Source: Sulfobacillus thermosulfidooxidans DSM 9293 (GTDB taxonomy: Bacteria > Bacillota > Sulfobacillia > Sulfobacillales > Sulfobacillaceae). Taken from it: a stretch of DNA of 64,000 bases. This document shows positions 2,729 to 44,702 of this stretch, piece after piece. Below the pieces are notes generated by a model. It was not told the origin of the DNA and did no database searches. It saw only the letters and a list, made by a program, of their open reading frames with translations. Within the stretch, counting starts at the first letter, position 1; every line of letters starts with the position of its first letter. The translations under genes were made by a program, and so were the position numbers. The stretch lies in contig NZ_FWWY01000001.1 in the NCBI RefSeq assembly GCF_900176145.1, positions 1,969,819 to 2,033,818 of the forward strand, written 5' to 3'.

Positions 2729-3622
2729 ATGATCGTGATATCGGAAAGGGTACATCCCATAGCGCTAGAAATGCTGTCATCCTATGAGATTTACTATGAT
2801 CCTGACCTGTATTCCCAGCGCGGAGCATTGTTAAGAGTGTTATCCAGGGCGCGCGGTTTAATTGTGCGCAACAAAACTCAAGTCGATGCGGAACTTTTGG
2901 CCCATGCCCCGCATTTGAAAGTGGTGGGACGTTTAGGGGTCGGGCTCGACAATATTCAGACGGATTTGTTATCAGCACAAGGGATTCAGTTAATCGTTCC
3001 CAGGGGTGCCAATGCCGTTTCCGTGGCAGAATATGTACTGGGCATGCTCATTGCCTTTCAACGCCATTTATTGGCTTTGACGCAGCAAGTTCGTCAAGGT
3101 GGGTGGATACGCGACATGTCTGGCTTAGAAATAGATGGAAGAACATTGGCTGTGATCGGATATGGGGCTACGGGGCAAGCGGTGGCACAAAGGGCGCAGG
3201 CGTTTCATATGCGTCTTAGAGTCTACGATCCTTTTGCCCAAGTGCCACAAACATGGGCAACCTCAACATTAGAAGAGGTTTTAGACGGGGCGGATGTGGT
3301 GAGCTTGCACGTGCCTTTGACAGCAAAGACCTTTCACCTGCTCAATGAAAAGACGCTCGCAATCTTACCCCACCACGCGACAGTCATCAACACGGCACGT
3401 GGGGAATTAATTGATGAGTCCCAGTTATTGGCGGCATTGACCAAAAAACAGCTAGGGGGCGCGATTCTTGACGTGCGCGAAGTAGAACCGCCTAAAGCAT
3501 CCGATGAATTACTGGGTCTCGCCAACGTGTGGTGTACACCACATATTGCCGGATTAACCGAGGACAGTCAAATAGCTATCGCACGCTACGTCGCGCAAGG
3601 TCTTATCGGGGTTTTAGGCTAA
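2729..3622 (+). CDS. D-isomer specific 2-hydroxyacid dehydrogenase
   Basis: The 297-residue product has the two-domain layout of the family. HLKVVGRLGVGLDNIQ (about residues 66-81) and GANAVSVAEYVLGMLIA match the catalytic-domain signatures. The NAD-binding fold has GYGATGQAVAQ (about 145-155), then VSLHVPLT, and INTARGELIDESQL with the catalytic Arg region. The late Glu/His pair is in REVEPP and TPHIAGLT (H near residue 272). It is closest in pattern to phosphoglycerate dehydrogenase (SerA) but lacks C-terminal ACT domains, so the physiological substrate is open. AAGGAG precedes the ATG. Confidence 0.88.
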   Translation: MIVISERVHPIALEMLSSYEIYYDPDLYSQRGALLRVLSRARGLIVRNKTQVDAELLAHAPHLKVVGRLGVGLDNIQTDLLSAQGIQLIVPRGANAVSVAEYVLGMLIAFQRHLLALTQQVRQGGWIRDMSGLEIDGRTLAVIGYGATGQAVAQRAQAFHMRLRVYDPFAQVPQTWATSTLEEVLDGADVVSLHVPLTAKTFHLLNEKTLAILPHHATVINTARGELIDESQLLAALTKKQLGGAILDVREVEPPKASDELLGLANVWCTPHIAGLTEDSQIAIARYVAQGLIGVLG

Positions 3623-3685
3623 ACGAGACAACTTTTTTCCTTCTCGGGTTCACGGTAAGATAGATGAAGAGAAAGGAGTATGGGG

Positions 3686-4072
3686 ATGCAATACCGGATG
3701 TTAGCAGCAAAGATTCACCGTGCTCGAGTGACGGAAGCCAATTTGAATTATGTGGGTTCTATTACCATTGATCAGGAGTTACTAGATGCTACGGGTCTTT
3801 TGCCTTATGAAATGGTTCAAATTACGAATTTGTCGAACGGAGAATTGTGGCAAACCTATATCATTCCCGGACCGCCGCATGGGGGAGATATTTGTCTTAA
3901 TGGTCCGCCCGCCCGCTTGTTCCATCCGGGAGATTTGGTGATTATCTTAGGATTTCGATTGTATGATGCCGATGAATTATCGTCTCATCAACCGACGGTG
4001 GTTTTTGTCGATGAAAATAATCACATCACGGAAGTGGTCCGAGAAGAAACTCCCTTTCGTACTAGCCCGTAA
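3686..4072 (+). CDS. panD: Aspartate 1-decarboxylase proenzyme
   Basis: PanD converts L-aspartate to beta-alanine for pantothenate and CoA synthesis. The 128-residue length is typical. The family start MQYRMLAAKIHRARVTEANL is followed by YVGSITID, whose Gly-Ser bond is the self-cleavage site that makes the pyruvoyl cofactor on the Ser. NGPPARLF and the hydrophobic GDLVIILGF are also conserved. The ATG at 3686 is chosen over an in-frame ATG at 3680 because AAAGGAG sits 7 nt before it and directly abuts the earlier one. panB and panC are not adjacent. Confidence 0.95.
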   Translation: MQYRMLAAKIHRARVTEANLNYVGSITIDQELLDATGLLPYEMVQITNLSNGELWQTYIIPGPPHGGDICLNGPPARLFHPGDLVIILGFRLYDADELSSHQPTVVFVDENNHITEVVREETPFRTSP

Positions 4073-4084
4073 GAGGAACGGAAG

Positions 4085-4189
4085 ATACTCGACTTAAGAT
4101 TCTTAGAGTTTTGGTCTCTTTGGGGATGATCCCCAAGGCATATCATTAGGACCAATCTGTTTAAAGAATTCTTAGGTCGAGTATTTTTA
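4085..4189. repeat. Nested palindromic element after panD
   Basis: An imperfect inverted repeat of about 20 nt (ATACTCGACTTAAGATTCTT at 4085-4104, against its near complement at 4164-4184) encloses a second pairing (TTGGTCT with AGGACCAA) and an inner hairpin TTGGGGATGATCCCCAA. A T5 run follows the right arm (4184-4188). It starts 13 nt after the panD stop, so it may end panD transcription. Its size and nested symmetry also suit a small palindromic repeat or structured RNA. No second copy was noticed in the window. Confidence 0.6.
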
Positions 4190-4510
4190 TGGAACCATGC
4201 TCCACGAGCCGAATAGGGACTATTGATGACATCATGGGCCAGAAAGATTCAGCCGCAAAACTTGTCGCCTTCATGGCGACTTGTTTTGTCGCAGCCAATA
4301 GGAAAGATAAGAGGCATAAGACGGATAAGAGGAAAGAGTTCCCCGGTTTTTTTACAACAGATGAGCTCACGAATTAACAAAATGCCGATGTTGATTGCAA
4401 CGATATGATAATTCTTGAACTTCGTGTTGATTAGGATGGCTTTCAAAGAAAAACGGAAAACGAATGAAAGAAAGTAAGAATTGTCGAGAGGACTAGGACG
4501 ATATGGCAAA
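4190..4510. other. Intergenic stretch without a convincing gene
   Basis: Short open frames occur on both strands but none has a ribosome site or family features. A hairpin is visible at 4256-4288, where CAAAAC/GTTTTG and GTCGCC/GGCGAC are separated by a symmetric TT/TT bulge with loop TTCAT. The rest is AT-rich. Confidence 0.4.
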
Positions 4511-4518
4511 AATAATTT

Positions 4519-4556
4519 ACGAACAAAGTAATTTAATAAAATGTTCGTGATATAAT
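4519..4556 (+). promoter_or_regulatory. Promoter -10 with overlapping inverted repeat, lipoate operon
   Basis: A perfect TATAAT (4551-4556) lies 47 nt before the ATG at 4604, with no good -35. Immediately upstream are inverted arms ACGAACA (4519-4525) and TGTTCGT (4542-4548), 16 nt apart, the right arm nearly touching the -10. A weak -35 with such arms suggests an activator or repressor site. The string AAAATGTTCGTGAT here (4538-4551) recurs exactly at 48183-48196 before the cox operon. Confidence 0.6.
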
Positions 4557-4603
4557 TTAAACTTGAATACAATAAATTGAATGACAATTAGCGGGGTGAG
4601 TTA

Positions 4604-5581
4604 ATGCTGCCACTGTATCTGGCTGGCGATGTGAACTGGCTAATGAGTCAAGCATTGTATCATGGTTTACCCGTTTTACATGAGGAAGGCATTATCTTAT
4701 GTTGGCCCAAAGAACCCTATGTCTCGCTTGGTTGTCATCAAGACTGGGATGACTTCGACGAAAATGCTCCAGTCCCTGTTGTTCGACGACGGGTGGGAGG
4801 TTCTTTAGTTTATCTTGATAATCAGCAAGTATTCTTTCAAATTATCCTCGATCCCTCGAAACATCCCCGCTTAAAAACTCCCGATCAGTGGTATCAGTTT
4901 GCACTCACTCCGGTGATTGCCTGTCTAAGTCATCTTGGCTTTAGCGCACAATTTAAACCGCCAGCCGACATCCTTGTTCAGAACCGCAAAATATCTGGAA
5001 ATGCTGGGGGACAAATCGAGGATAGTGTGGTGATTGTGGGCAATGTGTTGTTGAGCTTTTCCCTTGAAATGATGGCCCGTGTTCGAAAAGGCTCGGTGCA
5101 ATTCAAGCAAGCCTTTGCTGAAGCGATGAGCCGGCATTTGGTGACATTAGAAGAATTGACGAGAGGGAGAACATGGACGCCTGATGAGGTGATGCCATTA
5201 TTGGCCCAATTTTTTGTTGCCCAAATGGATGCACACATCATGGATATTCCGTGGGAACGTTGGCAACCCATGCTTGAGGAAGTTGGAGCTCAACTGATAA
5301 AGCCACAGTGGTTACACGCTCCTGGCTATCGTCCCCCTTATCATCAAGTTAAAGTACGCGAAGGGGTCTATTTAAGACAGCCGCGGGATGGTAGTCTGCC
5401 CGATGTGATTGCGGAAGTGGACACCGAGAAGAAATTGTTAACGGCACTATGGAATAGTCCTTTTGACATCCCGTTGCCGTTAACGCAGGAATCTCTTGTC
5501 ACCGAGGTCCCACAAGGGCCGTTTCGTGATGTTCTTTTTGAGTTAATGGACGTAAAGGTTAAAGATTCTTTGTTGTCTTAA
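4604..5581 (+). CDS. Lipoate-protein ligase A family protein
   Basis: A 325-residue member of the BPL/LplA/LipB fold, which activates or transfers lipoyl or octanoyl groups onto carrier lysines. Motifs: RRRVGGSLVYLD (residues 61-72, the RRxGGG-type loop) and the catalytic lysine K129 in NRKISGNAGG, then VIVGNVLLSF. The C-terminal 100 residues form the accessory region. It is the first gene of a tight run with an H-protein-like carrier, a second ligase and two radical SAM proteins. It could be a ligase, an octanoyltransferase (LipM/LipL share this fold) or part of an sLpl-type system. GGGGTG precedes the ATG. Confidence 0.82.
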   Translation: MLPLYLAGDVNWLMSQALYHGLPVLHEEGIILCWPKEPYVSLGCHQDWDDFDENAPVPVVRRRVGGSLVYLDNQQVFFQIILDPSKHPRLKTPDQWYQFALTPVIACLSHLGFSAQFKPPADILVQNRKISGNAGGQIEDSVVIVGNVLLSFSLEMMARVRKGSVQFKQAFAEAMSRHLVTLEELTRGRTWTPDEVMPLLAQFFVAQMDAHIMDIPWERWQPMLEEVGAQLIKPQWLHAPGYRPPYHQVKVREGVYLRQPRDGSLPDVIAEVDTEKKLLTALWNSPFDIPLPLTQESLVTEVPQGPFRDVLFELMDVKVKDSLLS

Positions 5582-5701
5582 TTTTGGGGAAGTGATGAAC
5601 CCTCAAAGTTTCTCGTGATTTATGGCCTGATTCATGATTTGTTGTATCGTCATGGCCGATAGTTTTTGTCAATGATTAAACCTTAAGGGGAGGAAATGAG
5701 G

Positions 5702-6121
5702 ATGGCAACGGAACCGATTCATCGCTGGAAAGTGTTAGCAGACCGGTTATATGATGCCCGACACCAGTGGGTACAAAAAGATGATGTATTGTGGACCATG
5801 GGGATTACCGATTACACCCAAGACACAGCGGGTGACATTTTATATGTTTCGTTGCCCGAACCTGGAACCGTATTGGAACAAGGACAGCCTTTTGGCAGTC
5901 TCGAGTCGGGTAAATGGGTTGGACAACTGTATGCGCCGTTCGATGGAGTCGTAATTGCGGCTAATGATCTGGTGCGGGATAATCCGCAACTGTTAAATCA
6001 AGACCCCTATGGACGGGGATGGCTGATCAAGGCGCGAGCTCAGAACCATGATGAGGCAGTAACACAATTGCTAACCGACACCGAGTACATGCAGTTACTG
6101 GACGAATTGGACGAACGCTAA
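5702..6121 (+). CDS. H-protein-like lipoyl carrier (GcvH/LbpA family)
   Basis: The 139-residue product has the GcvH fold: an N-terminal DDVLWTMGITDYTQDTAGDI strand set, then ESGKWVGQLYAPFDG with K71 as the likely lipoylated lysine (the usual GcvH motif is ESVKA). The late NPQLLNQDPYGRGWLIK matches the family. The ATG at 5702 is used because GGGGAGG is well spaced from it; an in-frame ATG at 5696 is too close. There are no glycine-cleavage genes nearby, and two ligases plus two radical SAM genes follow. This suits an LbpA-type carrier as used with sulfur-oxidising Hdr-like complexes, though no hdr genes are in the window. Confidence 0.85.
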   Translation: MATEPIHRWKVLADRLYDARHQWVQKDDVLWTMGITDYTQDTAGDILYVSLPEPGTVLEQGQPFGSLESGKWVGQLYAPFDGVVIAANDLVRDNPQLLNQDPYGRGWLIKARAQNHDEAVTQLLTDTEYMQLLDELDER

Positions 6122-7200
6122 TGGAACAGTGGCGATTATTGGATCCAGGTCCCTTACCGGCGTGGCAACAAATGGCTCTCGACAAAGTGGTGATCGAAGC
6201 TCGGGCACAGGATGTTGTTCCGAATACCTTGCGATTCATGGAATTTTCTCCGCATACGGCGTTAGTGGGATATCATCAGGCCGTCGATTTGGAAATTAAC
6301 CGTGACGAGGCGCAATTGCTGGGAGTCGACATTAACCGGCGCATTACCGGTGGCGGTGCAATCTATATGGATGAACGGCAGTTAGGTTGGGAGTTGTGTG
6401 TGAAATTTGACGAAGGCAAGCGGGTTCGTCCTGAAACGCTATATCCCAAATTGGCGCAAGTCGTTATTGAATCCTTACGTTCATGGGGCATTACCGCGAA
6501 GTTTCGCCCAGTTAATGATGTAGAGATTGACGGCCGCAAGATTTCAGGCACAGGGGGCGCCGATTATCACGGAGCCGTCATTTATCAAGGAACTTTATTG
6601 TTGGATTTTGATGTTGAGACTATGATCCGGGTCTTACGGCTTCCCATTGAGAAGCTGACCGATAAAGTGATTGATTCTTTTCAAAAACGCCTCGTGACCA
6701 TGCGAGAAATTCTGGGTTATGTGCCTGCCATAAGTGATGTCAAGCGGAGTGTTGAAGAGGCTTTGATGCAGGTCTTGGATGTCAATTTGACCCGTTCTGA
6801 TCTCACCGAGGATGAACGACGCAAGTGGGAACATCTTGCCCCCTCCTATCGCCAATCGAAATGGATTGATTTACGGAAGGTTCCGCAATTTGCTAACTAT
6901 CCACTTCATACTCTCACGCACAAGGCGCCCGGGGGACTGATTCGTTGTTTGATTCAGACCGACCAGCAAATTAAGCATATTAAAAAGGCGTTTATCACGG
7001 GAGACTTTTTTGTCTATCCTGAACGGGCCGTATTAGATTTAGAGGCGGCGTTAAAGGATGCTCCCTTACAACTCACCACATTATCGGCTATTTTACAGGC
7101 TCATTATCAACAGGGATACAACTATATGGGTGTGAGCGTCACCGACTGGTTATCCGCTTTATCTCCATTATGCGATCAAACTGAGGAGGGATCGTTATGA
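6121..7200 (+). CDS. Second lipoate-protein ligase A family protein
   Basis: A 359-residue LplA-fold protein with RRITGGGAIYMDERQLGW (residues 73-90, the lipoyl-AMP loop) and the catalytic lysine K140 in GRKISGTGG. A C-terminal accessory domain covers roughly residues 250-350. Its ATG overlaps the stop of the carrier gene (TAATG), so translation is coupled. It differs clearly from the 4604-5581 paralogue, suggesting divided roles, for example one attaching the acyl group and one transferring it between carriers. That division is inference. Confidence 0.85.
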   Translation: MEQWRLLDPGPLPAWQQMALDKVVIEARAQDVVPNTLRFMEFSPHTALVGYHQAVDLEINRDEAQLLGVDINRRITGGGAIYMDERQLGWELCVKFDEGKRVRPETLYPKLAQVVIESLRSWGITAKFRPVNDVEIDGRKISGTGGADYHGAVIYQGTLLLDFDVETMIRVLRLPIEKLTDKVIDSFQKRLVTMREILGYVPAISDVKRSVEEALMQVLDVNLTRSDLTEDERRKWEHLAPSYRQSKWIDLRKVPQFANYPLHTLTHKAPGGLIRCLIQTDQQIKHIKKAFITGDFFVYPERAVLDLEAALKDAPLQLTTLSAILQAHYQQGYNYMGVSVTDWLSALSPLCDQTEEGSL

Positions 7201-8372
7201 ATCAGGAGAAATTTTCGGAATCGATTGAATTACGCCCGTTGCAAGATGATGACCGGGAAAGCCCAGAATATGTTATGACGTCTTTGGCTGGTGCCATTAC
7301 GTTAGGTTTTGAAAAAGGAAAATTTGCCCGGGAGGAAACCGTATTACGAGGTCTTAATATCTTGATGACTTACAAGGAAAACTGTGTCGCCAATTGTTCA
7401 TATTGCGGAGTTTCTCGGGAACGGCGTGTGCCCAGGGAAGAGACCACATTTATCCGGGTGAAATGGCCCATTATTCCCGTAGAGGAATTAATCGAACGCA
7501 GTGTTCAGGTCCCTCATCAAATGCGCCGTTTATGCGTGGGCATGTTAGCCAACCGCCAATCTTTAGATCATTCCATACAAATTATTCGCCAATTTCATGA
7601 ACGTACTCCGTTATTAATTTCGGGATTAATCACCGCTTCGTTAATTAAAAAACGGGAAGATCTTGAAAGAATTCGTGATGCCGGTGCCGACCGGGTCGAC
7701 ATCGCGATTGATGCCGCGACCCCAGAGTTATTTGAAAAACACCGGGGGCGGCCCGTTAAGGGACCCCACCGCTGGGATCACTTTTGGTGGGTGACAGAAG
7801 AGGCCACTAAAGTGTTCGAACCGGGAGCGGTCGGCATTCATTTAGTCGCAGGGTTGGGAGAAACCGAACAAGAATTGTTGGAGGCTTGTCAAAAAGCTCA
7901 AGATATGAATGTCGTGACGCACTTATTTTCTTTTAATCCGGAACCTTCCACATTACTTGGCGATCATCCTCAGCCCCCCATGGGCCATTACCGTCGTTGC
8001 CAATTAGGCCGGTATTTAATTAATGAATTGGGCATTCATCTTCACCACTTTCGATTTAATGCCCAAGGGCAGGTTATCGACTTTGGACTCGAGCCGTCGG
8101 TATTAGAGAAAATTGTCGAGTCAGGCCGTCCTTTTATGACTTCGGGATGCCCCGATGAACATGGGGAAACGGCGTGTAACCGTCCTTACGGTAATGGCCG
8201 ACCCAGTGAAAAAATCCGAAATTTTGCGTTTTCACCGACTGCTCAAGACATCGAAGACATTCGCCAGCAACTGTGGGCAGATTTAGCCCTAGATGCTCAA
8301 ACAGTTAGCGAAGAAGAAGGTCTGAGCGTAAAAGCATGGGAGGGAGGGAACCTCGCTGAACTGGGAAAATGA
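7197..8372 (+). CDS. Radical SAM protein, LipS-type lipoyl synthase component (probable)
   Basis: A 391-residue protein with the radical SAM motif CVANCSYC (C63, C67, C70) that binds the 4Fe-4S cluster. The TIM-barrel core follows, with GADRVDIAIDAATPELF and GIHLVAGLGETEQELL near the SAM site. The family resembles biotin synthase-like enzymes rather than classical LipA, which has two cluster motifs. Its start overlaps the ligase stop by 4 nt (ATGA). Next to lipoate ligases, a carrier and another radical SAM gene, it is best explained as one half of the two-protein lipoyl synthase LipS1/LipS2. Which half cannot be decided here. Confidence 0.78.
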   Translation: MNQEKFSESIELRPLQDDDRESPEYVMTSLAGAITLGFEKGKFAREETVLRGLNILMTYKENCVANCSYCGVSRERRVPREETTFIRVKWPIIPVEELIERSVQVPHQMRRLCVGMLANRQSLDHSIQIIRQFHERTPLLISGLITASLIKKREDLERIRDAGADRVDIAIDAATPELFEKHRGRPVKGPHRWDHFWWVTEEATKVFEPGAVGIHLVAGLGETEQELLEACQKAQDMNVVTHLFSFNPEPSTLLGDHPQPPMGHYRRCQLGRYLINELGIHLHHFRFNAQGQVIDFGLEPSVLEKIVESGRPFMTSGCPDEHGETACNRPYGNGRPSEKIRNFAFSPTAQDIEDIRQQLWADLALDAQTVSEEEGLSVKAWEGGNLAELGK

Positions 8373-9309
8373 ACCTTTAGATGAATTAATTCACGAAGCC
8401 GCCCGTTTGTCCCGGCAAAATTTTCTTAGAACACTGGTTGTATCCGCTCCCAGTCAAAAGCATTATGATACCGGCATCTACCAAAATCAGCGCAAAACAT
8501 TTATGACACTCAGCGTGACAGGGCAACATTGCGCGTTGATGTGTGAACACTGCGGGACAAAGGTTCTGGAAACCATGGCGGTCGCCAATAGCCCGGCGCG
8601 ATTTCAAGCAGTGGCCGACAACCTGCTGCTTCAAGGAGCCGAAGGTGTCTTGGTGAGTGGGGGCTGTTTAGATGACGGCTCGGTTCCCTTGGAGCGTTTT
8701 GTCGATGACATCGCTCGGTTGAAATCGCAAGGGTTGACGGTTTTGGTACACACCGGCCTCGTCAAAAGATCCGTAGCCCGAGCATTAAAAGAGGCTGGGG
8801 TGGATCAGATTCTGCTTGATATTATTGGAGATGATGAGACCATTTCACAGGTCTACCATCTGGATAAGACGACAGAAGCGTACCGCGAGTCTCTTGCGAT
8901 ATTACGCGAAGAAGGACTAAGCGCGATTCCCCATGTCATTGTCGGTCTTCATTTTGGGCAGTTGCGCGGGGAGTTTCATGCCCTTGAAATGATTCGGGAT
9001 GAGGGCTGTCAGCAACTCGTGATTGTGGCGTTAATGCCGTTGCCCGGCACCAATATGGCTACAGTTCCCCTCACATCGGGTGAGGATGTGGGACGGGTGC
9101 TCGCCAGCGCCAGAATCATGATGCCTCAGACGCCCATTTCTTTAGGATGTGCTAAACCGGCCGGGGCAACCAAGAAACAGATGGAATATTATGCGGTGGA
9201 TGTGGGCGTCCAAAGCATCGCCTATCCCTTGCCAGATACCATTCGATATGCTGAAGAGCAGGGGTATGACATTCGCTATCACGAAAAATGTTGTTCGTTA
9301 TTGGCATAA
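8356..9309 (+). CDS. Second radical SAM protein, LipS-type partner (probable), CTG start
   Basis: The radical SAM motif CALMCEHC is C59, C63 and C66 in the 317-residue form. VSGGCLDDGSVPLE and GLHFGQLRGEFHALEMI follow the biotin synthase-like fold. The first ATG-type start in frame is a TTG at 8407 with no ribosome site. The frame is open further upstream and encodes a family-like N-terminus (LDELIHEAARLSRQNF). GGGAGGG lies 7-8 nt before a CTG at 8356, so CTG initiation inside the previous gene's 3' end is proposed. With the preceding radical SAM protein it would insert the two sulfurs of lipoate into an octanoylated carrier. Confidence 0.72.
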   Translation: MNWENEPLDELIHEAARLSRQNFLRTLVVSAPSQKHYDTGIYQNQRKTFMTLSVTGQHCALMCEHCGTKVLETMAVANSPARFQAVADNLLLQGAEGVLVSGGCLDDGSVPLERFVDDIARLKSQGLTVLVHTGLVKRSVARALKEAGVDQILLDIIGDDETISQVYHLDKTTEAYRESLAILREEGLSAIPHVIVGLHFGQLRGEFHALEMIRDEGCQQLVIVALMPLPGTNMATVPLTSGEDVGRVLASARIMMPQTPISLGCAKPAGATKKQMEYYAVDVGVQSIAYPLPDTIRYAEEQGYDIRYHEKCCSLLA

Positions 9310-9327
9310 AAAAGCGGTCGAGACACG

Positions 9328-9374
9328 AAAGAGCCCCCAGCTGGGGATTTCTTACCCAGCTGGGGGCTCTTTTT
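9328..9374 (+). terminator. Strong intrinsic terminator of the lipoate operon
   Basis: GAGCCCCCAGCTGGG (9331-9345) pairs perfectly with CCCAGCTGGGGGCTC (9355-9369), loop 9 nt, followed by TTTTT. An A-run precedes the left arm, so it could also act on the other strand. It closes the operon 20 nt after the second radical SAM gene. Confidence 0.93.
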
Positions 9375-9478
9375 GAACGGGAAGGGGGGAACATTAGAAC
9401 CAGTGGGAAAGGGCCATTTGACCCATGAAGATGATTTTTGAACCCGGTACACTTAAGGTAATAAAGGAGGGGATCACG

Positions 9479-9751
9479 ATGAAGTGGATGGTCCGGATTG
9501 CCGCGTCTTTGTTAACCAGTATTGGACTTGTATGGATGGTAATGATGGTCTTTCCCCACATGAACTTTACGCTAGGTCAAGGGGCCGCAATTGTGCTAAC
9601 CCTGGGTTATATGATTTGGATCGCCAGTTTAATCACGACAGGAATGTATTGGGCATGGAAACCCGAAACGCGAACATCAGAGGTTGCAATTCATAACGTA
9701 GTGGCATGGCCCATCTTAGGGCATGATACCAAAGGACCTAAGGCATCATAA
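9479..9751 (+). CDS. Small two-helix membrane protein
   Basis: A 90-residue hydrophobic protein with two predicted membrane helices (about residues 5-25 and 32-56) and a polar C-terminal tail ending GHDTKGPKAS. The ATG at 9479 is chosen because AAAGGAGGGG lies directly upstream; the frame extends to an earlier ATG at 9425 without a ribosome site. It stands alone between two terminators. No family is recognised; proximity to the respiratory oxidase genes is only suggestive. Confidence 0.65.
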   Translation: MKWMVRIAASLLTSIGLVWMVMMVFPHMNFTLGQGAAIVLTLGYMIWIASLITTGMYWAWKPETRTSEVAIHNVVAWPILGHDTKGPKAS

Positions 9752-9769
9752 CTTACTTCAATAAGAAAA

Positions 9770-9802
9770 AAAGTTCACAGATGATATTTTTCTGTGAACT
9801 TT
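9770..9802. terminator. Bidirectional terminator
   Basis: AAAGTTCACAG and CTGTGAACTTT form a perfect stem around a short AT-rich loop. An A-run on the left and T residues on the right allow it to end both the small membrane protein gene and the oppositely transcribed qox/hemerythrin operon. Confidence 0.85.
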
Positions 9803-9825
9803 GTCATGAAACTGGTTGCGTGATT

Positions 9826-10287
9826 TCAGAGGGAACCGTCACACTTGGAGAGGACCGGATGAGCTGAAGAGTTTGTCGCGAGCTGATGGTAATGGCGTTT
9901 GAGACATTCTAATTCGTGTTCATGATGGGTGTGAAGAAGTGTCGAGAGAGCTTCTAACCGCATTAAGACTCGGGAAGAGACGACACCGTCTCGATCAAGG
10001 GTGAAGCGGGCTTCATCGACCCAGGTTGCCATTAGTTCGTGATCTCGATGAAAAATCTTTAAACTAGGGATTTCCTCAAACAGAAAAGCTTCTTCAGCTT
10101 GTGCATGCACTAATTCCCGTTCAGTCCAAATATCCAGAAGAACTTCTGCGACTTCATAGGCACTGCTGGCATCATTATTCTTTAAGAAATTGCGTAGTAA
10201 TCGCATTCCAGCCTCCAGATCAGCCGTGACCAGCATGTGCGAGGTAAGGTGTTCGTCAAAATTTTCGAGCCGATGAGTGTGTGGCAT
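9826..10287 (-). CDS. Hemerythrin-like HHE domain protein
   Basis: A 153-residue helical protein with spaced His/Glu residues of the hemerythrin-like (HHE cation-binding) family: HMLVTADLEAGM, the AQAEEAFLFEE helix, IFHRDHELMATWVDEA and HTHHEHELECLKRH. Such proteins bind a di-iron centre and are linked to oxygen, NO or iron handling. The start at 10287 (MPHTHRLENF) follows AAAGGA; the longer open frame runs antisense-free into qoxD but in another frame and is not credible. It is the last gene downstream of the quinol oxidase operon, about 100 nt after qoxD, so a role in oxygen or radical protection is plausible. Confidence 0.8.
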   Translation of the reverse strand: MPHTHRLENFDEHLTSHMLVTADLEAGMRLLRNFLKNNDASSAYEVAEVLLDIWTERELVHAQAEEAFLFEEIPSLKIFHRDHELMATWVDEARFTLDRDGVVSSRVLMRLEALSTLLHTHHEHELECLKRHYHQLATNSSAHPVLSKCDGSL

Positions 10288-21045: not shown

Positions 21046-21416
21046 TACCAGGGGAAATCCAGTGTGATGGCGACATGGTGACTATCAATTCTTCGGGTGC
21101 CACTGTGACATTAACGGTGGAGAACACCGGGGACAGACCCGTTCAAGTGGGATCTCATTTTCATTTTTTTGAGGTAAACAAGGCGCTTGACTTTAATCGG
21201 GAGAAAGCCTACGGGATGCGTCTTGACATTCCGGCGGGAACAGCGGTGCGGTTTGAACCCGGAATCCGCCAGACCATCATATTGACACCCATTAAAGGAG
21301 CACGCCGGGTTTATGGGTTAAATGGATTGACAGAAGGTCCTCTAGATAAAGAGGGAAATAAAGAAGCAGCTCTTGAACGTGCCAAACAACGAGGGTTTTG
21401 GAGGCCAGAGTCATGA
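21042..21416 (+). CDS. ureB: Urease beta subunit
   Basis: A 124-residue beta subunit: [11 protein letters not shown] at the start, [21 protein letters not shown] and [24 protein letters not shown]-like segments are diagnostic. The C-terminal residues continue to RGFWRPES and overlap the ureC start by 4 nt. The subunit packs on the alpha chain and helps close the active site. Confidence 0.96.
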
Positions 21417-23128
21417 GTCATTCAATCGATCGCCATCATTATGCGCATTTATTTGGGCCGACTGTGGGAGACAAAATTCGGTTGGCCGACACCGATTTGT
21501 GGGCCATGGTTGAAGAAGACCGAACGCTTTTGGGTGAGGAAGCGAAATTCGGTGGAGGCAAAGTGGTTCGCGACGGCATGGGGCAGGCCAGTTGGCATAG
21601 TTCTAAAGCGGGTGCACCGGATTTAGTCATTACAAATGTGGTCATCATTGATTACTGGGGTATAGTCAAAGCGGATGTTGGCATTAAAGATGGACGAATT
21701 GTTGCGATTGGGAAGGCAGGAAACCCCGATATTATGGACGGGGTCGATCCCCGGTTAATTATCTCTCCCGCTACTGAGGTGATCTCTGCGGAAGGCCTTA
21801 TTCTGACCGCTGGCGGTATTGATTCCCATGTTCACTGGATTACGCCCGATTTAGCTCGACACGCCTTAATGGCGGGTTTAACTACATTGATTGGGGGAGG
21901 AACCGGTCCGGCAACGGGGACCAATGCGACCACGGCCACCCCAGGACCGTGGAATATCACTCGGATGCTGGAAGCCATGAGTTCGATGCCGGTAAACATC
22001 GGCTTAACAGGAAAAGGCAATTCCTCATTTCCTGAGCCTCTAGAAGAACAAATTGCTGCGGGGGCCATTGGTCTCAAACTACATGAAGACTGGGGCACAA
22101 CCCCTAGAGCGATCGATACCTGTTTAAAGGTTGCCGATGAGGCCGACGTCCAGGTGACAATCCATACCGATACCCTGAACGAAGCAGGATTTGTGGAACA
22201 AACCCTAGAAGCCATTGGCGGGCGGACTATTCACACATACCACACCGAAGGTGCCGGTGGCGGTCATGCTCCAGACATTCTTCGTGTGGCATCTTTCGAA
22301 AACGTTTTGCCTTCTTCAACCAATCCCACACGGCCTTATACGATCAATACCCTAGCAGAACATTTGGATATGTTAATGGTCTGTCATCACTTAGATCCAA
22401 AACTTCCTGAAGACGTGGCGTTTGCGGATTCACGCATTCGCGGGGAAACCATAGCGGCAGAAGATGTCTTGCATGATTTAGGCGTCTTGTCGATGATGTC
22501 TTCCGATTCCATGGCCATGGGACGTATTGGCGAAGTGATTATTCGAACATGGCAGACGGCCGATAAAATGAAAAAGGAACGAGGCCATCTGCCCGAAGAT
22601 TCTCCCCGAAATGACAATTGGCGGATTCGCCGGTATGTCGCCAAATACACCATCAATCCCGCAATTACTCATGGAATTTCGCGATTAGTCGGATCTGTTG
22701 AAGTCGGGAAGTGGGCTGATTTAGTGTTATGGAACCCAGCATTCTTTGGAGTTAAACCCTCGATTATCATTAAAGGCGGGATGATCGTAGCAGCGCAAAT
22801 GGGTGATGCTAATGCATCGATTCCTACCGTGGAACCGCAAATGATGCGTGAAATGTTTGGCGCTCAAGGATTTGCCCCGAATGAGCTGTCATGGACTTTT
22901 CTCTCTAAACAAGCCTATGTCTCTGAGCATATTCAGAAGCGGATTAAACGGCGGGTATATCCCGTAGAAAATTGCCGGAGCATTACTAAAAAGTCGATGA
23001 TGCTTAATGACCAAACTCCTCACATCGAAGTGGATCCGGAAACCTACCGGGTTTATGTCGATGGTGAACGGATTACGTCTCGGCCAGCAACAGTTCTTCC
23101 CTTAGCGCAGCGGTACTTCCTCTTTTGA
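21413..23128 (+). CDS. ureC: Urease alpha (catalytic) subunit
   Basis: A 571-residue amidohydrolase with all nickel-site residues: H139 and H141 (DSHVHWI), carbamylated K222 in [10 protein letters not shown]251, H277 and D365 in MSSDSMAMG; the flap C324-H325 lies in MVCHHLDP. Spacing matches the Klebsiella enzyme with a constant offset of five. The ATG at 21413 is preferred over an in-frame TTG at 21398 because GGAGG is well placed before it. Active-site completeness suggests a working enzyme. Confidence 0.97.
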
Positions 23129-23153
23129 TTGATGACAGAAAGGGATCCACGTG

Positions 23154-23276
23154 ATGCAGTATGGAATCAGGAAAAAATTAAGGACAGTAACAGAGTCACT
23201 TGCGTATTGTCGGGAGAATAAAGGGACGGAACATTTGGCAAAGGGAAAGGAGGCAAGGCGTAAAGCTCTTAAGTGA
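23154..23276 (+). CDS. Possible 40-residue basic protein between ureC and ureE
   Basis: The frame encodes MQYGIRKKLRTVTESLAYCR followed by a Lys/Arg/Glu-rich tail. AAAGGG lies 9 nt upstream of the ATG. The gap between ureC and ureE (170 nt) is unusually large for this tight operon and this frame fills most of it. It is not a known urease accessory. Composition is rich in basic residues and could be accidental. Confidence 0.3.
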   Translation: MQYGIRKKLRTVTESLAYCRENKGTEHLAKGKEARRKALK

Positions 23277-23298
23277 CGAGCATTGCGCTTTAATATCA

Positions 23299-23763
23299 AT
23301 GCAGACTCTGACTATCAACCAGGTTCTTAGGAGGTATAATGCCACCACAGATACCAAACTCACTGAATGGATTGACATGGACGTGGATCAATGCGAAAAA
23401 ACCCGGTGGAAAGCCATAACCAATCTCGGACGGGTGGTTATCATAGATTTGCCGCGCCACGTCCGCATATCACACGAAGACGTTGTCTATGAGGATGATG
23501 GCCGGGTGATCGTTGCCCGTGTCAAACCTCACTGGGTTTTGGTTATGAAACCCAAAACATTTCATGAAATGGGATCTTTGTGTTATCACATCGGAAATTT
23601 GCACCAACCCTGCTTGGTTCAAGAACAAGAAGTTTTTACGCCGAATGAGGAATTTCTCAAATCGTTAGCGGATTCGTTATCCGTCTCATATTCTCTTGAA
23701 GAGCGGATTTTACCCCAAGGGTTTGCGACGAAAAGCCGCTCTCAGCACGTGCATCATGTCTAG
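23299..23763 (+). CDS. ureE: Urease accessory protein UreE
   Basis: A 154-residue nickel metallochaperone. VYEDDGRVIVARVKPHWVLVMKP and MGSLCYHIGNLHQPCLVQ carry the conserved central histidine region, and the C-terminus ends HVHHV, a short metal-binding tail. The ATG at 23299 gives a normal length. The frame continues upstream to 23200, where a strong AAGGAGG (23246-23252) has no usable start codon behind it, so the start is not certain. The end overlaps ureF by 8 nt. Confidence 0.88.
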   Translation: MQTLTINQVLRRYNATTDTKLTEWIDMDVDQCEKTRWKAITNLGRVVIIDLPRHVRISHEDVVYEDDGRVIVARVKPHWVLVMKPKTFHEMGSLCYHIGNLHQPCLVQEQEVFTPNEEFLKSLADSLSVSYSLEERILPQGFATKSRSQHVHHV

Positions 23764-24466
23764 TGATAGCATCAAAGTAGGGGAGATGTTGCAATTTCTG
23801 GATGGGTTGTTTCCTTCCGGAGCATTTACTCACTCGTTTGGGCTGGAAACCCTTGTTCAAGAACAGTGGATTACCGATGTGCAATCCTCAGGTTACTGGC
23901 TCAAAGCCATTATCCAGGACAGTTGGGCGACTTCCGATGGATTGGCCGCGTTACTGGTTTTTCAAGCCGTAGAGCAGGGTTCATTTCTCGACCGGGTTGC
24001 GCGCATTGATGGTTATTTAACGGCCAGTCGGACAGCATATGAAAGTCAAAAAGCCTCGTTGACAATTGGACGCCGAATATTGGCGACCGCTGTAGAATTG
24101 TTAGATGAGCCGGATTTGTCTTTATACCAGCAATACACCTTATCGCGTCCCTCGCTCGGTAATCAGACAGTCATCATTGCACTGATTGGAATGCTTCGGC
24201 ATTGGGGATGTGATGCGACCTTACAAGGTATTACCTACTTTACTTTATCGGGCTTTGTGCAAGCACTATTGCGGTTAGTACCACTCGGCCAGCGTGAGGC
24301 ACAGAAGTTATTATTTGAGCTGAAGCCATGGACTATGAATGTACTCAAGAATGTGCTTAAGCAGATTGATTTCTTAACTGTGGAAGATCTCGGTTCGAGT
24401 ATGCCGGTTTATGATATTGCCGTAATGCGCCATAAAGACTTGTATTCCCGGCTTTTCCGATCTTAA
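23756..24466 (+). CDS. ureF: Urease accessory protein UreF
   Basis: A 236-residue all-helical protein. [24 protein letters not shown] near the start and [21 protein letters not shown]-type helices match UreF, which works with UreD and UreG as the nickel-insertion complex. The ATG at 23756 (MSSDSIKVG) is inside the ureE 3' end, so the genes are coupled; the open frame from 23696 is longer than the family needs. Confidence 0.92.
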
Positions 24467-24498
24467 ATCTGAATTTTGAAAGACAGGGGAGAATCACG

Positions 24499-25140
24499 AT
24501 GAAGCCAGTAAGAATTGGCGTGGCTGGGCCCGTCGGTTCGGGTAAAACCACCGTGGTAGAATGGCTTGCCCGGGCACTACGGGACGACTACAGTATTGCG
24601 GTTATTACAAATGACATTTACACACGCGAAGACGAACGCATTCTCGTGAGTAGCCAAGTGTTGCCAGCAGAACGTATTCGGGGAGTCGAAACGGGGGGAT
24701 GCCCGCATACGGCGATTCGCGAAGATGCCTCGGTGAATCTCGATGCATTAGATGAATTATGCGTAACATTTCCGGATCTGGATATCGTGCTTATTGAAAG
24801 TGGCGGTGACAATCTTGCGGCCACTTTTAGTCCTGAGTTGGCCGATTTTGTTATTTATGTGATTGATGTAGCGGCTGGGGAAAAACTTCCGCGGAAAGGA
24901 GGGCCTGGAATTATTAAGTCCGATGTCTTGATTATCAACAAAATTGATCTCGCTCCCTATGTGGGAGCCCGTCTTGAGGTCATGATCCACGATACGGAAC
25001 AAATTCGACAAGGGCCCTATGTCTTAACGAACTTAAAAACTGGCGAAGGCTTTGAACAATTGCTGCAGCTTGTGCGAAGTGAAGCATTATTTGAAGAGAT
25101 GACAAAATCGATCTCAAATGGGGAAAAAGATGGCCATTAG
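24499..25140 (+). CDS. ureG: Urease accessory GTPase UreG
   Basis: A 213-residue SIMIBI GTPase. P-loop [12 protein letters not shown] is at residues 7-18, the metal-binding CPH motif is in [17 protein letters not shown], and [16 protein letters not shown] and [12 protein letters not shown] give switch and base-specificity elements. It powers nickel delivery to UreC. GGGGAG precedes the ATG. Confidence 0.97.
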
Positions 25141-42890: not shown

Positions 42891-44702
42891 TTAGTGAGTT
42901 AAGGCTTCAATATCTTGCGTCAAGTTTGCCACATCAGGACTTCCCAATCCCGTAACTCGGTTATATCCTAACTGATCATAGTAGAACCAGTTGTTTCCTT
43001 TGGTAATCGCGTGAAAAGCTGGATATAAAGTGTTTTCAGGGCTTTGGAAGACGGCATAGAAAAGAGGGTTAGCGAATCCAATTTGGGCATGTAGTGCGCT
43101 GTCCATTACGGCAACAATCCCTGCCCATTGTGGAGACGCAAAGGATGTTCCACCTGCTCCATTTATCCACCCTTCGCCATAAGGTGTTCCAGGACTTGTG
43201 TCATAGACGGCATACCCTGTAAAGGGATCGGCGTTAAGAGCGACATCTGGTACATTGCGTCCTACCGTGTCGGGGAATAAGGGTCCGTATTGATAAAAGG
43301 GACGACGGAAAACATCGGATGTTCCCCCGCCTGATCCTATGGGGAAAACGGCTTGAAAGAATTGGGCCTCGGTAGTGTATCCGAAATTCGCGTAATACGG
43401 CAATAAGTAGGACCAACCCCACCCGTGCTCTGTTCGCATGGGAATGGAACCGCCAGGAATGGGCACTTGGCCATTAATGGGCAAGGTGGTCCCACCGGCT
43501 GCCGTAATATAAGGTGACGAGGCTGGAAAATCCACTGAAGGGGCACTGATAATCGGATAGCCGTCATAAGCCCCATAATCTCCTGATGCGCAGAACAAGG
43601 ATTGTCCTTGGGCAGCCCCTTCCATAAAGATATTGTTTATAGAAAAATCATACGCCGGAGTAGCCAATAATTCGTCCTCACCCCAACTGCAGGACATGAT
43701 TTGTGCCTGGTCCTGGCTGACCACGGCATTGAAGAGATCATAAAATCCTTGCGAGGTGTTCGGGGCTTCATAGACTAAGATATTAGCCCGAGGAGCCAAA
43801 GAGCCCGAGCGTTCCACATCCAATGTGGTTTCGATTCTTCCAGAACCTGGACCACTATCCCCAGATGGAAATCCTCCATCAACCGGCACAATGTTTACGG
43901 TCGCTTGCCCCCGGTTAATGTGATAGTACTTCCAAAAATACTGTGCGTCGGATAGCTGGAATGTGGCCAAAGTGGCAATAGCAATTGTCTCGTGTTGCCC
44001 CAGTGCTTTCTTTTGATAGAGTGGGGTGATCTGATACGCTTGAGCAATTTGTTGGGGGCTGTATCCTTCTGGGGTAGTGGTCGAAGTCTGGGACGAGGAT
44101 GAGTGAGTCAGATTAGAAATGGTGCTGAGTGCAGGATGAAATGCATGATAAGTGGTCAGTCCAATGAACCCCGCGATAACATTGGCCACATTAGCGGGCA
44201 AACTGGGGTCTTGAGTATTTGCTGCAAAGACTTGCTTGCCATGGCGGTAGCGCATCATCTGCACATGCAAAGCTTGTTCGATTTGGCCATAGGTTCCACG
44301 AAACGTTAAGGTATTGTGATTGGAAGAAACAGACTGCAAAGCTATGCCAAACTGCGCAAAATATTGTGTGACTTGGTGGATTTGATTCGTTGTGGGTCCA
44401 AATTCTTGGGTGAACTGGGCTGGGCTCAGAAAATGGCGATAATTTGGAGACGAGGGTGAATAGAGAGTTCGAATGAAGTTTTTGAGTTGATTGACATGTT
44501 GCCAATTAAGGGCTACCTCAAAGGTTGTCGTGACCGAAGATGACACTGGTCCTTGTAGAGTCGATTGTTGCAGGAGCTGATGAGCAACATTGTGATGCAT
44601 TACCGAGAGAGTCGGCTTAGACGCGGCAAGGGTTGTGGATGCAAAGAGTAAAACGCTTGCCATAGTCGCTGAAGACAGCATCAAGATTTGGCGTTGTCTC
44701 AT
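42891..44702 (-). CDS. Secreted sedolisin/kumamolisin-type acid protease (S53)
   Basis: A 603-residue secreted proenzyme. A signal peptide (about residues 1-27), the pro-kumamolisin activation domain (about 50-180) and a linker precede the S53 domain. Catalytic residues: E291 and D295 in IETTLDVERSG, D375 in CASGDYGAYD and S520 in GGTSFASPQWAG. The terminal VTGLGSPDV is the calcium-binding region. Such peptidases act at low pH, which fits an acidophile. An ATG with AGGAGG (near 44711) is well placed. Confidence 0.94.
   Translation of the reverse strand: MRQRQILMLSSATMASVLLFASTTLAASKPTLSVMHHNVAHQLLQQSTLQGPVSSSVTTTFEVALNWQHVNQLKNFIRTLYSPSSPNYRHFLSPAQFTQEFGPTTNQIHQVTQYFAQFGIALQSVSSNHNTLTFRGTYGQIEQALHVQMMRYRHGKQVFAANTQDPSLPANVANVIAGFIGLTTYHAFHPALSTISNLTHSSSSQTSTTTPEGYSPQQIAQAYQITPLYQKKALGQHETIAIATLATFQLSDAQYFWKYYHINRGQATVNIVPVDGGFPSGDSGPGSGRIETTLDVERSGSLAPRANILVYEAPNTSQGFYDLFNAVVSQDQAQIMSCSWGEDELLATPAYDFSINNIFMEGAAQGQSLFCASGDYGAYDGYPIISAPSVDFPASSPYITAAGGTTLPINGQVPIPGGSIPMRTEHGWGWSYLLPYYANFGYTTEAQFFQAVFPIGSGGGTSDVFRRPFYQYGPLFPDTVGRNVPDVALNADPFTGYAVYDTSPGTPYGEGWINGAGGTSFASPQWAGIVAVMDSALHAQIGFANPLFYAVFQSPENTLYPAFHAITKGNNWFYYDQLGYNRVTGLGSPDVANLTQDIEALTH

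Follow-up and report, generated by a model that had tools for sequence, protein, structure and literature searches.

A LipS1/LipS2 lipoate assembly operon of Sulfobacillus thermosulfidooxidans with a cysteine-free GcvH-fold carrier and a degenerate lipoate ligase-like protein

Introduction

Which protein is lipoylated by an operon that encodes two lipoate ligase-like (LplA-like, Lpl) proteins, one carrier protein and two radical S-adenosylmethionine (SAM) proteins? The question is raised by positions 4604–9309 of a 64 000-nucleotide stretch of the Sulfobacillus thermosulfidooxidans DSM 9293 genome (assembly GCF_900176145.1, contig NZ_FWWY01000001.1, positions 1 969 819 to 2 033 818 of the forward strand; referred to here as the window). 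A preliminary description of the locus had tentatively read the carrier as LbpA, the lipoylated protein of the sulfur-oxidising heterodisulfide reductase-like (sHdr) system, and the radical SAM proteins as LipS1 and LipS2 taking the place of LipA in an acidophilic sulfur oxidiser; the organism is indeed a Sulfobacillus-type acidophile. The LipS1/LipS2 pathway, LbpA and sHdr are already known, and where the bacterial pathway is set out in PMC6067878 and PMC10332631, the ligase loads LbpA directly. For the window operon a different arrangement is proposed here, at a rough probability of 0.45: lipoate assembly by LipS1/LipS2 would be organised as a lipoyl relay and would serve sulfur oxidation.

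Results

Gene content and order of the operon

Five open reading frames (ORFs) lie head to tail on the + strand in the order lplAa-carrier-lplAb-lipS2-lipS1, and coordinates, strand and domains agree with the preliminary description.

4604–5581, + strand: lplAa, clade B LplA-like protein, degenerate as a ligase, proposed lipoyl transfer protein (PF21948, Lpl tree, residues, AlphaFold2 (AF2) model)
5696–6121, + strand: carrier, GcvH fold with ESGKWVG motif, neither LbpA nor gcv-operon GcvH (GCV_H, cysteines, tree)
6121–7200, + strand: lplAb, intact sLpl(AB)-type lipoate/octanoate-protein ligase by residues (PF21948, clade A, AF2 model)
7197–8372, + strand: LipS2, radical SAM protein, predicted first sulfur insertion at C8 (NF053743 below cut-off, cysteines)
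8407–9309, + strand: LipS1, radical SAM protein, predicted second sulfur insertion at C6 (NF053742, cysteines)

Pfam models matched both Lpl proteins (PF21948 LplA-type domain; lplAa 88.9 bits, lplAb 143.7 bits), the carrier (GCV_H, 130.1 bits) and the LipS2 and LipS1 genes (Radical_SAM, 51.5 and 42.3 bits). The carrier gene, lplAb and lipS2 are linked by overlaps of 1–4 bases; 114 bases separate lplAa from the carrier gene and 34 bases separate lipS2 from lipS1. Since a scan of positions 3900–9900 for promoters and terminators returned signals no more than chance, the operon call draws on the overlaps and on conserved gene order. The latter was established by tblastn in about 14 further Bacillota genomes, with identity as low as 39–53% in L059, and a chance arrangement is thereby excluded. 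These genomes belong to Sulfobacillus species, Alicyclobacillus tolerans (L105) and two more distant Bacillota bins (L059/L108 and L060; in L060 the contig stops within lplAb). The operon adjoins shdr genes in L059/L108, L060, L095, L096 and L097, and in L059 shdr and LbpA genes directly precede it; in the window genome it lies about 0.9 Mb from either shdr cluster.

An intact and a degenerate Lpl protein

The 124 Lpl proteins of these loci fall into two clades in a tree built with a quick method without bootstrap (clade B: Shimodaira–Hasegawa-like approximate likelihood ratio test 98). Clade A contains lplAb together with proteobacterial sLpl(AB)-type proteins, archaeal LplA and the classical LplA references. 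Clade B contains lplAa, the Lpls of shdr clusters, whose genes adjoin those of LbpA, and, from other phyla (Actinomycetota, Acidobacteriota, Chloroflexota, Calditrichota, Planctomycetota, Ignavibacteriota, Myxococcota and others), the second Lpl encoded in LipS operons.

Every ligase residue examined is kept in lplAb, including the catalytic lysine, the adenylate-loop lysines and RRxxGGG, and these residues are retained at 81–100% across clade A. The C-terminal LplB-like domain of lplAb scored 47.8 bits, under the model cut-off of 65. In the LplA references the adenylate-loop lysines are conserved; in known LplA structures they serve the adenylate. In lplAa the RRxxGG loop and the catalytic lysine are retained, the GD motif of the small domain is lost and six positions are changed (G79S, N132A, K178Q, K182A, R190H and E232W, lplAb numbering). 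N132, K178, K182, R190 and E232 are kept in none of lplAa and its 14 orthologs. The loss extends to operon-borne clade B proteins in general, with adenylate-loop lysines kept at 0–6% overall (K178 and K182 at 3–6% in those of other phyla) and the small-domain GD mostly lost. The shdr-linked clade B Lpls of the Sulfobacillales keep K178 and K182 at 100%, and their ligase residues are intact except for R190Y.

AF2 models were in line with these residue patterns. The lplAb model (predicted local distance difference test (pLDDT) 91) superposes on two-domain LplA over 312 residues (Z 34.6), and the lplAa model (pLDDT 95) superposes on ligases over about 220 residues, mainly of the N-terminal domain (Z 24). 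A similar division is described for human LIPT1: its N-terminal part can be overlaid on LplA, its C-terminal domain takes a different position, and it no longer synthesises lipoyl-adenosine monophosphate (PMC7253636). Judged by residues and predicted fold, lplAb is an intact sLpl(AB)-type ligase and lplAa is degenerate as a ligase, having lost parts needed for activation; thus, of the two ligases of the preliminary description, one stands as such. A role of lplAa as a lipoyl amidotransferase of the LIPT1/LipL type is proposed by analogy.

The radical SAM proteins

The reading of the radical SAM proteins as LipS1 and LipS2 was borne out by family models and cysteines. LipS1 barely passed the equivalog model NF053742 (230.3 bits, cut-off 230). 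LipS2 did not pass NF053743 (206 bits, cut-off 270), which is still its best-scoring family; its name is therefore taken from cysteines and gene context and not from the curated score. In Thermococcus kodakarensis the likely cluster ligands are CX3CX2C plus C230, C276 and C277 in LipS1, and CX3CX2C plus C85, C276 and C279 in LipS2 (PMC9585515). The window LipS2 matches this ligand order with C63, C67, C70 and C113, C318, C327, which are kept in 69–70 of 70 homologs, and the window LipS1 has the radical SAM and auxiliary cysteines, which are kept in 82–84 of 84 homologs. No second LipS1 copy was found in the genome, and other matches to the LipS2 model there were weak (at most 42.7 bits). By these measures the two proteins are a LipS1/LipS2 pair.

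The carrier is neither LbpA nor the GcvH of the gcv operon

The modified lysine of the carrier would lie in the motif ESGKWVG, at residue 73 counted from the ATG at 5696 or residue 71 from the ATG at 5702. The K71 of the preliminary description fits the second start, which also matches the start position of the closest carrier orthologs. LbpA is defined by two strictly conserved cysteines, one N-terminal and one C-terminal, that GcvH does not have (Cao et al. 2018, PMC6067878). Among 51 collected LbpAs the N-terminal cysteine was present in 51 and the C-terminal one in 49. The window carrier contains no cysteine at all; together with its 15 orthologs it shows the N-terminal LbpA cysteine in 0/16 and the C-terminal one in 1/16 proteins, and neither was found in any of 33 LipS-operon carriers of other phyla (0/33 each). 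In the best tree the 51-row LbpA clade (support 100/99) excludes the window carrier, which stands nearest GcvH (99/92). With 139 alignment columns, too few for deep placement, the approximately unbiased (AU) test did not reject one clade of carrier and LbpA (p 0.18) or one clade of the carrier and the other LipS-operon carriers (p 0.06). The identification of the carrier as LbpA was rejected, both LbpA cysteines being absent.

The carrier passed the NCBIfam gcvH model (119.1 bits, cut-off 115.85), so automatic annotation would name it GcvH. Its gene is not accompanied by gcvT or gcvP, and the gcv operon of the genome has a gcvH of its own. Taken together, cysteines and gene context suggest that the carrier would represent a third class of GcvH-fold carrier, distinct from both LbpA and gcv-operon GcvH.

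Other lipoate and sulfur-oxidation genes of the genome

The 3.86 Mb genome, in two contigs, holds six H-type carriers and six Lpl-type genes. Outside the window the following loci are relevant:

L017: gcvT-gcvH-gcvPA-gcvPB-glyA operon
L018: canonical lipA-lipB pair beside pyruvate dehydrogenase (PDH) E1/E2 genes
L015:5143–14679: shdr cluster with two LbpAs and one clade B Lpl with ligase residues
L016:68–10528: second shdr cluster with two LbpAs and one clade B Lpl with ligase residues, EtfAB and a membrane HdrD-like fusion
L019:4923–5765: lone LipL-like octanoyl/lipoyl transferase outside the lipoate operons (NF053589, 71.7 bits, cut-off 400)

The four true LbpAs of the genome are all in the two shdr clusters, and these are the counterparts of Hdr clusters I and II, which Justice et al. 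2014 (PMC4378227) presented for Sulfobacillus. With the LipS1/LipS2 pair and two shdr clusters, the expectation that shdr genes would be found elsewhere in the genome and the idea of a LipS/sHdr connection both hold. Replacement of canonical LipA by LipS1/LipS2 was rejected for this genome because lipA and lipB are present. The preliminary description had set its reading against a lipA/lipB pair in company with a GcvH carrier among gcv genes; the pair and a gcv operon were found, and the carrier is not in that operon. Co-occurrence of LipS1/S2 with canonical LipA, as in this genome, is common in bacteria according to the part of PMC10332631 that deals with it. The LipL-like gene at L019 may serve a canonical relay from GcvH to E2.

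No convincing lipT was found in the window genome; the best match is 29% identical and lies elsewhere, and the gene is absent from the operon. In L059 a geranylgeranyl-reductase-like oxidoreductase of the flavin adenine dinucleotide type (L059:7711–8817, - strand) stands between lplAb and lipS2, in the position and of the kind of lipT.

Recurrence in other genomes

Within the order, lplAa orthologs and LipS1 were found in the identical 13 of 42 genomes, and sHdrB1 in all 13 of these. Co-occurrence across phyla was sampled at 51 LipS1 loci that have flanks of at least 4 kb in both directions: the carrier and a clade B Lpl occurred together at 27, were both absent at 19 and were discordant at five. 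The set of a ligase, a degenerate Lpl and a single carrier thus recurs in LipS operons of several other phyla, so that two Lpls around one carrier are only partly as unusual as had been claimed. For carrier genomes without shdr in the fetched flanks, sHdrB1 was found elsewhere in L131, L138, L139, L154, L167 and L168. In two Burkholderiales LipS loci (L174:15262 and L177:15451) lipS2 is followed by a clade B-like Lpl that is very divergent, and there is no extra carrier.

Neighbouring genes

A small membrane-type ORF beside lipS1 (9425–9751, + strand) has no Pfam or NCBIfam match and is at most a candidate member of the operon; it was found at the same position, with 45–82% identity, in L089, L091, L092 and L093 of the same genus. 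Directly upstream of the operon (2729–4072) lie a phosphoglycerate dehydrogenase-type 2-hydroxyacid dehydrogenase and panD. Elsewhere in the window, a urease alpha subunit and a UreG/HypB-type GTPase (21398–25137) mark a probable urease cluster, and a protein with Pro-kumamolisin activation and subtilase domains (42891–44702) is an acid-type protease consistent with an acidophile.

Discussion

The proposed lipoyl relay

We infer the following steps, direction of transfer and acceptor. Octanoate (or lipoate) would be attached by lplAb, with adenosine triphosphate (ATP), to the lysine of the GcvH-like carrier of the operon. With the chain on the carrier, LipS2 would insert sulfur at C8 and LipS1 would then insert sulfur at C6. 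Finally, lplAa, predicted to be unable to activate free lipoate, would pass the lipoyl group on from the carrier to the LbpAs of both shdr clusters, by analogy with human LIPT1 and Bacillus subtilis LipL, which act from GcvH.

Like the sLpl(AB)-LipS1/S2 systems that sulfur oxidisers have (Tanabe et al. 2023, PMC10332631; Cao et al. 2018, PMC6067878), the window operon combines LipS1 and LipS2 with a ligase of the sLpl(AB) type, and its genome also has shdr and LbpA. Unlike them, it also encodes a degenerate second Lpl and a carrier distinct from LbpA and from gcv-operon GcvH, and it lacks lipT. With the lipoyl relays of B. subtilis (LipM-GcvH-LipA-LipL) and humans (LIPT2-GCSH-LIAS-LIPT1; PMC7253636) it would have in common a GcvH-type hub, sulfur insertion on that hub and an LplA-fold protein without the full ligase parts. 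It would differ from these in that octanoate enters by an ATP-dependent ligase, sulfur is inserted by LipS1/S2 and the target is LbpA; moreover, the window hub is not the GcvH of a gcv operon. The LplA2/GcvH-L pairs in SirTM operons of Staphylococcus aureus and Streptococcus pyogenes (PMC4518038) likewise combine a GcvH-like protein outside gcv with its own ligase in one operon, but are tied to ADP-ribosylation and have no sulfur-insertion enzymes and no second Lpl. The two shdr clusters with gcsh (LbpA) and lpl genes match Sulfobacillus hdr clusters I and II (Justice et al. 2014, PMC4378227), and in the portion of that report covered here no mention of a separate LipS operon was found. Likewise, in the portions of the LipS/sHdr literature covered, supplementary tables aside, no description was found of a third GcvH-fold carrier or of a degenerate second Lpl in LipS operons.

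Alternatives and points against the relay

The main alternative treats the carrier as a client and not a hub, namely a third lipoylated swinging-arm protein, perhaps acting in the sHdr reaction or with another enzyme, which lplAb would load and LipS1/S2 would finish, with lplAa as its chaperone or partial ligase. The ESGKWVG motif, identical to that of many LbpAs, the presence of sHdr in each of the 13 genomes of the order with LipS1 and the dedicated LplA2/GcvH-L pairs of S. aureus and S. pyogenes (PMC4518038) are compatible with such a role. The carrier nevertheless has none of the cysteines to which sulfur binding in LbpA is attributed, it is always accompanied by assembly enzymes in the examined loci, and no further enzyme gene co-travels with the operon across phyla in these loci when the genes of this genome serve as queries; we regard a client role as unlikely. 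A little less probable again is redundancy, in which lplAa and lplAb would both be ligases of different specificity and LbpA, the carrier and other proteins would each be loaded by a ligase with no relay between; this is how sLpl(AB) acts on LbpA in Proteobacteria (PMC6067878, PMC10332631). Retention of the RRxxGG loop and catalytic lysine in lplAa would fit this, but lplAa and nearly all operon-borne clade B proteins are without both adenylate-loop lysines and the D of the GD motif, and most of the C-terminal domain of lplAa is not superposable on ligases. That the carrier is after all LbpA, and the operon an LbpA maturation unit of the sHdr system as first proposed, is very improbable. This reading has the motif, the shdr linkage in several relatives and the AU result for a joint clade in its favour; against it stand the two missing cysteines, the position outside the LbpA clade in the best tree and the four true LbpAs that the shdr clusters already hold.

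Several observations weigh against the relay itself. The shdr-linked clade B Lpls look like near-intact ligases, and sHdrB1 also occurs in 17 of the 29 genomes of the order that have no LipS1, so that direct loading of LbpA is conceivable; the near-intact appearance of these Lpls speaks most strongly against a relay being strictly needed in Sulfobacillus. In lplAa the catalytic lysine is kept, and no standout conserved cysteine that could be a candidate acyl-enzyme nucleophile was found across the clade B subgroups. The carrier trait shows only about four changes on the LipS1 tree (3–4 independent pairs), and its co-occurrence with clade B Lpl is accordingly given as a pattern, with no significance test. 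Lastly, no sHdrB1 was seen in L137, L160 and L172, genomes with this type of operon, some of which may be incomplete; the carrier genomes L157, L110 and L111, likewise without shdr in the fetched flanks, show none either.

Implications

A relay for sulfur oxidation with its own GcvH-like hub and with an amidotransferase derived from LplA, whose ATP activation would have been lost in parallel with mitochondrial LIPT1, may be spread over the LipS1/S2 operons of several phyla, where its parts are likely annotated as GcvH and lipoate ligase; we put this forward tentatively, as somewhat less than an even prospect. If true, many bacteria would use an indirect lipoylation route in place of direct loading of LbpA, and the presence of two Lpl genes per operon would be explained. 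The carrier would then belong to a third class of GcvH-fold carriers that is read as GcvH by sequence scoring, and the predictions made here can be tested with purified proteins.

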